From NCBI GenBank assembly GCA_012719345.1, contig JAAYAN010000015.1, positions 1 to 34,911 on the forward strand: a DNA stretch of 34,911 nt. The letters run 5' to 3'. The translations under genes and the position numbers were made by a program. Below are positions 29,645-32,332 of this stretch, one piece after another (position 1 is the stretch's first letter; the number at the start of each line of letters is the position of its first letter). This DNA comes from Ignavibacteria bacterium. GTDB lineage: Bacteria > Bacteroidota > Ignavibacteria > Ignavibacteriales > Melioribacteraceae. The notes under the pieces were generated by a model. The model did not search any database. It was not told the origin of the DNA and saw only the letters and a list, made by a program, of their open reading frames with translations.

Positions 29645-30379
29645 ATGGACAAATGGTTTATTGAGTGGTTTACATCGGATGAATATTCCGATGTTTATGC
29701 ACATCGCGATGAAAAAGACGCATTAAATTTAGTAAAACTGATAGCTGAAAACATACATACACCCAAAAATTCCTGGCTGCTTGATGCCGCTTGCGGTTCG
29801 GGAAGATACTTAAACGAATTTTCAAAGTTAGGCTTTCAATCAATAGGATTCGATTTGAGTATGCCTCTTCTTAAAAAAGCTAGAGAAACAAGCAGTAAAA
29901 CCGGTAATAATTTTTCCCTGATAAATGCAGATATGCGAAATGTATGTATTAACAAAAAATTTGACCTTATTTTAAATGTTTTTACGAGTTTCGGCTATTT
30001 TTACCGGGATGAAGAAAATTTCAAATTCATAAATAATTCTTCGCTGATGATAAAGAACAGCGGTTTTTTTATTTTTGATTATCTGAACAAAAATTATGTT
30101 ATCAACAATCTTATTAAATATTCGCAGAAAATAGTCAATAACAAAAAAATTGAAGAATTTAGGGAAATAAGTGATGGCAGAGTAATTAAAAAAATGACTA
30201 TAGGTACAGAAAGCGGAATAAAAGAATATTTTGAATCGGTTAAGTTATACAGTCCCGAAGAAATAATTGAAGGATTCAAATCAGCAGGGTACAGACTTGT
30301 GAAAAAATTCGGTAATTATTCGGGTGACAAATTTGATGAGGAATTATCTGAAAGATTTATTGTATTTTTCGGAAGATGA
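29645..30379 (+). CDS. Class I SAM-dependent methyltransferase
   Basis: A 244-residue methyltransferase of the Rossmann type. Motif I is LLDAACGSGRYLNEF near residue 44, followed by a second acidic strand end (SIGFDLS) that binds the ribose, and NADMRNV (motif III area). The C-terminal part carries YFESVKLYSPEEIIEGF, a pattern of small-molecule methyltransferases such as the ubiquinone/menaquinone group. The acceptor is unknown. It begins one base after recR and overlaps the first lipoprotein gene by four bases (ATGA), so it belongs to the ybaB-recR operon. Confidence 0.85.
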   Translation: MDKWFIEWFTSDEYSDVYAHRDEKDALNLVKLIAENIHTPKNSWLLDAACGSGRYLNEFSKLGFQSIGFDLSMPLLKKARETSSKTGNNFSLINADMRNVCINKKFDLILNVFTSFGYFYRDEENFKFINNSSLMIKNSGFFIFDYLNKNYVINNLIKYSQKIVNNKKIEEFREISDGRVIKKMTIGTESGIKEYFESVKLYSPEEIIEGFKSAGYRLVKKFGNYSGDKFDEELSERFIVFFGR

Positions 30380-30948
30380 AATATTTAATATACATATCAT
30401 TAATATTAGTCTTTGTTTCCTGCGATCTTTTTACTTCCAGGGATTCGGAAGACCCTGCAGGATTGCGCAGCAATTTTAATTCTCCCACAACGCCCGAAAT
30501 ACTTTTCGAAAATCTTGCAAGCTCTTTTAACGACAAAGTAATAGAAAATTACACGGCAAACTTTACCGATTCGATGTACCTTGCAAAAAATTTCCGTTTT
30601 ATTCCCGCTGCGGATGCGGCAGGTGAATTCCCTCAGCTTGCCGATTGGAGCTTGCCCGATGAAAAACAGTATTTTACGCAGCTTGTTTCAAAAGTTGCAG
30701 CTAACCAAAAATTAGGACTCAAACTTTTTTTTAACGAAAAAACCGTTTATGTTGACAGCGCGGTTTATATTTACCGTTACGAAATATCCACAAATTCCGA
30801 TGATGAAAATATTCCGTCTTTTTGTTCAGGCACTTCGCAGTTTACAATTAATGTGGACAGAAGAAATTTCTGGGTTATTTCTAAATGGCAGGATATTTCG
30901 GATAACAAAAACAGATCGTGGAGTTATTTGAAAGGAAAACTTTATTAA
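30376..30948 (+). CDS. Predicted lipoprotein of unknown function, paralogue 1
   Basis: A 190-residue protein with a lipoprotein signal: a hydrophobic segment (residues 3-15) ending VFVSC with Cys16 for lipidation. The mature part has ILFENLASSFNDKVIENYTANFTDSMY, then FINPV-like strands, ending FWVISKWQDISD. The helix-then-strand pattern and W-x-I-x-x-W-x-D end resemble NTF2/SnoaL-like domains, which is inference. The following gene encodes a similar lipoprotein, and both precede ftsX. It overlaps the methyltransferase stop by four bases. I do not recognise a functional assignment. Confidence 0.75.
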   Translation: MKYLIYISLILVFVSCDLFTSRDSEDPAGLRSNFNSPTTPEILFENLASSFNDKVIENYTANFTDSMYLAKNFRFIPAADAAGEFPQLADWSLPDEKQYFTQLVSKVAANQKLGLKLFFNEKTVYVDSAVYIYRYEISTNSDDENIPSFCSGTSQFTINVDRRNFWVISKWQDISDNKNRSWSYLKGKLY

Positions 30949-31441
30949 CAGTTTAATTAAAATATTCATACTTTTATTAACATTTATAGTTTACTCCTGC
31001 GTTAATCCCTTTGCCCCTAAGCTGGATGAAAAGGACGAAAACATTTTTGCACTGGGCGATACAAAAACAATCGGCGGGCTTTTCGAAAACTTTCAATATG
31101 CTTATACTTTTAAAGATACAACAATTTACGGCTCAATAATTCACAAGGATTTTGAATTTACATTTACCGATTACGAGCAGGGCGTAGTTAAATCGTGGGA
31201 AAGAAACGAGGAGATGAAAGCTACGCATGGTTTGTTTATTAATGCGCAAAGACTTGATTTAATATGGAATGAAATCATATCTTTAAGTCCCGATTCTACA
31301 GTTGTTATACGTTCTTTTGAACTTACTGTTACATATAACCCTACAAATGTGGATGGCGCCAGCGGAAAAGTTAATATGCGTCTTAAAAAAAACAATTCCG
31401 GAAACTGGCAGATAATTAAATGGATTGATGAATCAAATTAA
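30944..31441 (+). CDS. Predicted lipoprotein paralogue 2, apparent ATT start
   Basis: A 165-residue protein with a good lipoprotein signal: from the start, N-S-L-I-K then a hydrophobic run ending IVYSC, with Cys19. No ATG, GTG or TTG lies between the upstream in-frame TGA (30929-30931) and this signal; the best start is ATT at 30944, with AGGA at about 30932-30935. The body has GLFENFQYAYTFKDTTIYG and ends WQIIKWIDESN, closely paralleling the preceding lipoprotein, so the frame is clearly coding. A Met 90 codons in (31214) would drop the signal and the conserved first half. It overlaps the upstream stop by five bases and leads to ftsX. Confidence 0.72.
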   Translation: MNSLIKIFILLLTFIVYSCVNPFAPKLDEKDENIFALGDTKTIGGLFENFQYAYTFKDTTIYGSIIHKDFEFTFTDYEQGVVKSWERNEEMKATHGLFINAQRLDLIWNEIISLSPDSTVVIRSFELTVTYNPTNVDGASGKVNMRLKKNNSGNWQIIKWIDESN

Positions 31442-31453
31442 AAGAAGAGAAAA

Positions 31454-32332
31454 ATGTACCTATTTTATTTAACCGAATCGCTTAATTCTTTCTGGAAAGC
31501 AAAAGTTGCTTCCTTTGCATCTATTGTTACAATTGCAGTTGCAGTTTTCACTCTTGCCGGTTCTGCTCTGCTTATTTTTATTTCCGATAAAATTGCAAAC
31601 CATATTAAAAGCCGTATTGAAGTGGATATTTTTCTAGAAGAAAATCAGGATGAAACTTCAGTCTATAATCTTTTGGATGCTTTGGAAGGCGAAAAGGAAA
31701 TTTCGCAGACAATTTTTACTTCGAAAGAAGAAGCTCTTAAAAAGATGGAAGCTAGGCTTGGAAAAGGATTTTTAAGCAAGGTGCTGGAGGTAAATCCTCT
31801 TCCTGCTTCAATTAATATAAGGTTTAACCCTAATTATATTTCGGAAAGCGTAATAAACAAGGTGATGGATAAATATAAAAACCATGCGGGTGTTGCAGAT
31901 ATATATTTCAACGATAATTTCACGTTAAAAGTTTTATCGTATATCGAGCCTTCCAACCATTTTGTTTACTGGCTTGCAGGAATCTTTGGAGTAATGGGTA
32001 TGCTGCTTGTTTATCTTACATCAAAAATAATTATAAACCACAAAATGTATCAGTTCGAAACTATGAAACTTGTGGGCGCAAAAATTTCGAGCATAAAAAT
32101 CCCCATTATTCTTAACGGAATTATCACCGGATTTATTGCAGGCGTAATTACAATTGTAATTTACTACTGGCTTTTCTTCTTTTTTCAGAAATATTACGGT
32201 TCGTTCAGTCTGTTTTCACTTCAGGGAATTTTCTTCATCGGTCTTTTAATTCTTGGAACTGTTTTTGGATTTTGCGGCAGTTATCTTTCAACATTTAAAA
32301 TTAAAAATGTTATAAAAATTTTTGAAAAATAA
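31454..32332 (+). CDS. ftsX: Cell-division protein FtsX
   Basis: A 292-residue permease-like protein. It has a first membrane helix at about residues 20-42 (ATIA... region VTIAVAVFTLAGSALLIF), then a large periplasmic domain with a conserved ILEVNPLPASINIRF-type segment (KVLEVNPLPASINIRF), and three further helices in the last 120 residues, including the FtsX turn ETMKLVGA. With the ATPase FtsE it controls peptidoglycan hydrolases at the septum. No ftsE is next to it here, which is common in Bacteroidota-related groups. It starts 12 bp after the second lipoprotein gene. Confidence 0.92.
   Translation: MYLFYLTESLNSFWKAKVASFASIVTIAVAVFTLAGSALLIFISDKIANHIKSRIEVDIFLEENQDETSVYNLLDALEGEKEISQTIFTSKEEALKKMEARLGKGFLSKVLEVNPLPASINIRFNPNYISESVINKVMDKYKNHAGVADIYFNDNFTLKVLSYIEPSNHFVYWLAGIFGVMGMLLVYLTSKIIINHKMYQFETMKLVGAKISSIKIPIILNGIITGFIAGVITIVIYYWLFFFFQKYYGSFSLFSLQGIFFIGLLILGTVFGFCGSYLSTFKIKNVIKIFEK

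Follow-up and report, generated by a model that had tools for sequence, protein, structure and literature searches.

ORF2, a conserved lipoprotein gene, is predicted with high confidence to begin its translation at an AUU codon. It is very probable, from the comparison of orthologous loci, that fMet initiation at this codon is directed by a Shine-Dalgarno sequence and probably coupled to termination of the preceding gene, ORF1. Conserved AUU starts themselves were already known; what is new in ORF2 is the overlap with a stop codon and the order-wide retention of the start. The stretch of DNA analysed (the window, 34,911 nucleotides) is one contig (C222) of a 4.02-Mb assembly of 323 contigs, and the features of interest are the following:

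30376..30948, + strand: ORF1, the upstream lipoprotein gene, with an ATG start, 190 aa and the stop TAA at 30946-30948 (alignment A2).
30932..30936, + strand: Shine-Dalgarno core AAGGA, 7 nt before the ATT and within the coding sequence of ORF1.
30944..30946, + strand: predicted ATT start codon of ORF2, presumably read as fMet.
30944..30948, + strand: start/stop overlap ATTAA of 5 nt, a geometry impossible for an NTG start.
30944..31441, + strand: ORF2, predicted lipoprotein with an NTF2-like predicted fold, 165 aa from the ATT, stop TAA at 31439-31441.
30998..31000, + strand: lipobox Cys codon TGC of ORF2 (C19, invariant in the 34 sequences of alignment A1).
31454..32332, + strand: ftsX homologue, with Pfam FtsX_ECD and FtsX over the cut-off.

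The ORF2 frame of the window opens after a TGA at 30929-30931 and reads AAG GAA AAC TTT ATT AAC AGT TTA ATT AAA. ORF1 ends TAT TAA, and the third base of the ORF2 ATT is the first base of this TAA. The initial annotation had stated that no ATG, GTG or TTG (NTG in the following) is available after the TGA, and indeed none was present between 30932 and the lipobox (Tyr-Ser-Cys), whose Cys codon begins at 30998. The first in-frame canonical start is the ATG at 31214. It would give a product of 75 aa and cost ORF2 its residues 1-90, including 11 of the 26 columns that are invariant in the family. An ATT preceded by AGGA, as had been put forward from this one locus, is the best-supported reading of the start, and the comparative evidence for it far exceeds what a single window offers.

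Alignment A1, whose 34 sequences were chosen from loci without NTG, contains these 26 invariant columns and, as read from the alignment, shows a hydrophobic leader followed by the invariant lipobox C19, as in a lipoprotein. The structure model of ORF2 (pLDDT 86) matched 3blz_A with an E-value of 1.4e-6 and TM-scores of 0.58 by query and 0.75 by target, which points to an NTF2-like fold; this match assigns ORF2 a predicted fold and not a function. The score for DUF4440 (Pfam PF14534) was below the curated cut-off (17.4 vs 25.2 bits). ORF1 and ORF2 had been described as strong paralogues. They are related according to profile comparison (probability 94.7, E = 6e-8), but "strong" was an overstatement, the pairwise BLASTP match being weak (29% over 63 aa, E = 0.002). 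An ftsX gene was found in 40 of 47 loci (L001-L047, some genomes being represented twice) and immediately followed ORF2 in 37 of these; from this gene position, a role of ORF2 near FtsX may be guessed.

Homologues of ORF2 were detected in 54 of 58 relatives and in 148 of the 164 genomes of the order. We read 147 loci of the order, the window included, and excluded genome G018, in which the gene is split over two contig ends (L033/L048). The start codons of orthologues, a check proposed in the initial annotation, were compared over the span that opens at the in-frame stop and ends 12 codons ahead of the lipobox Cys. Within this span, 87 of the 147 loci, the window among them, lacked any NTG, and in all 87 an isoleucine codon follows a Shine-Dalgarno core no shorter than 4 nt, the first such codon being ATT in 86 loci and ATC in one. 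The remaining 60 loci had an NTG either with (32) or without (28) a core of at least 4 nt. ORF1 served as a control in the same loci: 126 of its 131 leaders contained an NTG at 12-30 codons upstream of the Cys and five did not, and the chance level for an isoleucine codon with a core of at least 4 nt was 19 of 131 ORF1 leaders.

The final calls for the 147 ORF2 loci were isoleucine in 105, nearly always ATT, and NTG in 36, while six loci received no call (L006, L010, L018, L059, L140 and L154). L126 and L130, where the ATT is overlapped but an ATG lies two codons away, were counted as NTG. An NTG is found in the open frame of 18 of the 105 loci called isoleucine, upstream of the isoleucine codon in 17 and just downstream of it in L156, so that the call in these 18 rests on position; in 11 of them the NTG is a GTG within the Trp-Ser-Glu codons of ORF1. 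An in-frame stop immediately precedes the ATT in L019, L030 and L055. Among the eight single-contig genomes carrying ORF2, six show an isoleucine start (G007, G035, G046, G060, G092 and G150), the exceptions being G048 (TTG) and G049 (GTG). Since 36 loci have a canonical start, AUU is not required. Genus g48 (L063, L142-L145) has no AAGG Shine-Dalgarno before the isoleucine codon, which is still at or near its old position, and has an in-frame TTG upstream. In L006, ORF1 ends TAC TGA, which leaves ACT at the usual start place, and the closest NTG on the upstream side stands 32 codons ahead of the lipobox Cys.

ORF1 was traced in 136 of the 147 loci, and the other 11 were left out of the overlap counts. 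Its stop codon overlapped an in-frame ATT in 103 of the 136 loci, as ATTAA in 96 (TAA) and as ATTAG in seven (TAG). In L028, for instance, ORF1 ends GAT TTG AAA GGG AGG ATT TAT TAA, and the same bases in the ORF2 frame read as the Shine-Dalgarno AAGGGAGG followed by ATT AAG. The stop of ORF1 lies elsewhere in 33 loci; of these, 14 have a TGA with a T before it, which creates an in-frame TTG (TTGA overlap), and five retain an isoleucine codon without overlap (ATT in L062 and L153, ATC in L110 and L066, ATA in L095). Loci without NTG made up 81 of the 103 with overlap vs four of the 33 others. The final calls, isoleucine to NTG, were 98 to 2 in overlapping loci vs 5 to 26 in the others (Fisher p 3e-20), a comparison that is partly circular because the overlap helped to make some of the calls; it and the preceding comparison are both inflated by relatedness. 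The best Shine-Dalgarno core was at least 4 nt long in 97 of the 98 overlapping isoleucine loci (mean 4.67), with 7 and 4 as the commonest spacings between core and isoleucine codon. Cores of this length preceded 22 of 34 NTG-type ORF2 starts (mean 3.38) and 19 of 126 starts of ORF1 itself (mean 1.9).

Within an overlap of 5 nt the start codon can only end in T, from which it follows that ATG, GTG and TTG are impossible there and that a change from ATT to ATG would destroy the stop codon of ORF1. Canonical starts were observed mainly where the ORF1 stop has moved or has become TGA, which gives the ordinary TTGA overlap. The initial annotation had regarded orthologues with an ATG elsewhere as a potential refutation of the ATT. 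Orthologues with a canonical start do exist (the 36 NTG loci), but as the ORF1 stop has moved or is TGA in 26 of the 28 canonical-start loci with ORF1, they support the site, together with the 14 TTGA loci, and do not refute it. On balance, AUU has probably been kept because the start of ORF2 and the stop of ORF1 lock each other; we are surer of the AUU start than of this explanation. An independent-pairs test of this lock on supported branches had little power, as it comprised only six pairs, with 2.6 in the same direction and none in the opposite one (p 0.25).

It might also be that the ATT serves IF3 control of ORF2, providing adaptive low or IF3-responsive expression as in infC, and has nothing to do with the overlap; we regard this as conceivable, though rather unlikely. 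infC is the textbook example of a gene with an isoleucine start and is autoregulated by its own product. We found it in 37 of 38 relatives and read 30 loci (L167-L196, the genome of the window being L190). As a positive control, 29 of the 30 had an isoleucine start with a Shine-Dalgarno (23 ATC and 6 ATT), and 26, all among these 29, had no NTG at all. In the bodies of infC, ATC is a minority isoleucine codon (56 of 405). With such starts in 29 of 30 loci, discrimination by IF3 is presumably active in the order, which speaks for IF3 control of ORF2, as do the ATC start of glyS in 22 of 30 loci (see below) and the persistence of isoleucine starts in the five loci without lock. However, the lack of NTG tracks the overlap closely (81/103 vs 4/33), and canonical starts have returned about 11 times on the gene tree, both of which are expected if AUU is tolerated and not required.

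The tree was a quick FastTree of mature proteins of about 145 residues rooted on L042/L043, and many of its branches are weak, so that the number of changes is rough: parsimony required 16, namely one gain, 11 losses and four regains of the isoleucine start. The gain was placed at the base of 151 tips, consisting of the 147 loci of the order and four of the neighbouring family f13. On this gene tree, the isoleucine start would thus predate the split of the order from f13. Among the 26 loci read outside the order, all four from f13 (4 of 5 matching genomes read) were of the isoleucine type, L229 with NTGs upstream; 21 had an NTG near the site, and the ambiguous L237 was entered as NTG in the tree.

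A scan of 800 kb of the relative G007 for further isoleucine starts, in which 687 ORFs were kept, yielded glyS as the sole convincing new case. Since infC in the scanned stretch, with its first NTG 7 codons after the ATC, went unreported, the scan misses genes of this kind. The name glyS (glycyl-tRNA synthetase) is given on the basis of its sequence motifs. In G007 (L284:14997 region) an ATC stands behind GAGGTG, and the open frame has no NTG among its first 37 codons. From the 36 relatives with a match, 30 loci (L287-L316) were sampled. ATC with a Shine-Dalgarno was present in 22, of which 12 had no NTG (including L290) and 10 had an NTG further upstream, and an ATG or GTG was at or near the site in seven (L298, L301, L302, L309, L311, L313 and L314). 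L303 carries ATT/ATA, and in L310 there is an additional ATG two codons on. In most of the loci read, glyS thus appears, as judged from sequence, to start with ATC. A different initiator tRNA was also sought in the 800 kb of G007, about a quarter of the genome; the tRNA genes listed there included two tRNA-Met (CAT) and none with an isoleucine anticodon. We speculate, with little confidence, that infC, glyS and ORF2 might form a small, conserved start-codon regulon whose members all follow the level of free IF3 up and down, in which case the charging of glycine and an envelope lipoprotein linked to FtsX would be tied to the state of translation initiation.

In a separate observation, a microcompartment-vertex-like gene with the motif GKVIGTVWST had CTG at the start place in G007 (L317) and G011 (L319) and TTG at the same place in nine of the 11 loci beyond that of G007, while L323 gave no motif match. 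This gene possibly starts with CTG in two genera.

A prfB-like programmed +1 frameshift at UAU UAA that makes an ORF1-ORF2 fusion is a serious rival, because relative to ORF1 the frame of ORF2 is +1 in 102 of the 103 isoleucine loci where ORF1 was found, and a stretch resembling a Shine-Dalgarno is located a few nt before the ORF1 stop. We nevertheless consider it improbable. The frame differs in 19 of the 28 NTG loci with ORF1 (frame 2 in 17, frame 0 in two), and in L062, L153 and L110 the ORF1 stop lies 1-3 codons further on with the isoleucine codon still at the old place. In addition, 14 loci have the TTGA overlap at the old place and in the ORF2 frame, and a fusion would bury the signal peptide and lipobox that ORF2 possesses itself. 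Neither the frame relation nor the spacing between stop and Shine-Dalgarno is fixed, and the locus was rejected as a member of the prfB-type +1 frameshifts. It is still less likely that ORF2 starts in all species from a GTG or TTG located upstream among the codons of ORF1, such as the Trp-Ser-Glu GTG: this codon shares an open frame with ORF2 in 11 of the 105 isoleucine loci (e.g. L011, L024 and L077), but none of the 11 is preceded by a 4-nt Shine-Dalgarno core, and in 87 of the 147 loci an in-frame stop cuts any such codon off from ORF2. Finally, a base error near 30940-30950, for which the initial annotation had advised a check, or a pseudogene might be feared in a window that is one contig of 323, but this is refuted by the orthologues and has next to no probability, because the lack of NTG is common to 87 of the 147 loci, the same overlap occurs in 103 of 136, including six single-contig genomes, and the frame is open with 26 invariant columns over 34 aligned sequences, all from NTG-less loci.

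For the favoured reading, initiation of ORF2 at AUU, the following course of events is proposed. As stop and start share bases, the two genes are probably coupled, and initiation of ORF2 is likely to depend on termination of ORF1. Ribosomes finishing ORF1 at UAA would be held by the Shine-Dalgarno AAGGA(GG) in its last codons and would then begin ORF2, with fMet-tRNA, at the AUU whose last base opens the UAA. By analogy with published reporters of other genes, the output of ORF2 might be low, about one tenth of that from AUG, and its start may be sensitive to IF3.

The initial annotation had called ATT starts rare outside infC. This is right, yet they are not unique, and ORF2 appears, as judged from its sequence, to work like the published genes with non-canonical starts. 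ORF2 and infC have in common a long-conserved isoleucine-type start with a Shine-Dalgarno; ORF2 differs in being an envelope lipoprotein gene whose start overlaps the stop of another gene. AUU, AUC and AUA are described as non-canonical starts discriminated against by IF3 (PMC4611024), and overproduction of IF3 is reported to lower reinitiation almost threefold in an E. coli reporter (PMC2268962). PMC9410913 gives infC and pcnB as the only two genes with AUU in E. coli. Like ORF2, pcnB is unrelated to initiation, but the part of that source consulted speaks of no overlap with an upstream stop and of no conservation across an order for pcnB. The staphylococcal genes cvfC1 (AUU) and ccpN (AUA) are described with conserved isoleucine starts behind a Shine-Dalgarno that yield, in poor medium, about 10% of the output from AUG; their initiation was mapped by profiling (PMC13009471). 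According to the same source, cvfC1 leads its operon and carries an extended Shine-Dalgarno, while the start of ORF2 lies inside a gene cluster, has a core of mostly 4-5 nt and is fused to a stop. Streptomyces sigR, like ORF2, has a conserved non-canonical start in a coupled gene pair, but this is GTC instead of ATT, the partner gene lies downstream, and repression by IF3 has been demonstrated (PMC5472188). The 4-bp overlaps of start and stop described in PMC2784483 (ATGA, GTGA, TTGA) share bases in the same way, in contrast to the 5-nt ATTAA of ORF2, which is closed to NTG starts. In the literature searched, with subscription papers mostly outside, there was no report of the start of the ORF2 lipoprotein or of an AUC start of bacterial glyS.

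As far as that literature shows, few genes with a conserved AUU start are in print. Start callers that admit only ATG, GTG and TTG cannot place the start of ORF2 in 87 of 147 loci or that of infC in 26 of 30. ORF2 has kept AUU over most of an order, and its natural escapes show how a 5-nt overlap is undone. It therefore offers a clean test case for whether odd start codons last because IF3 control is selected for or because they are locked with the stop codon of a neighbouring gene.
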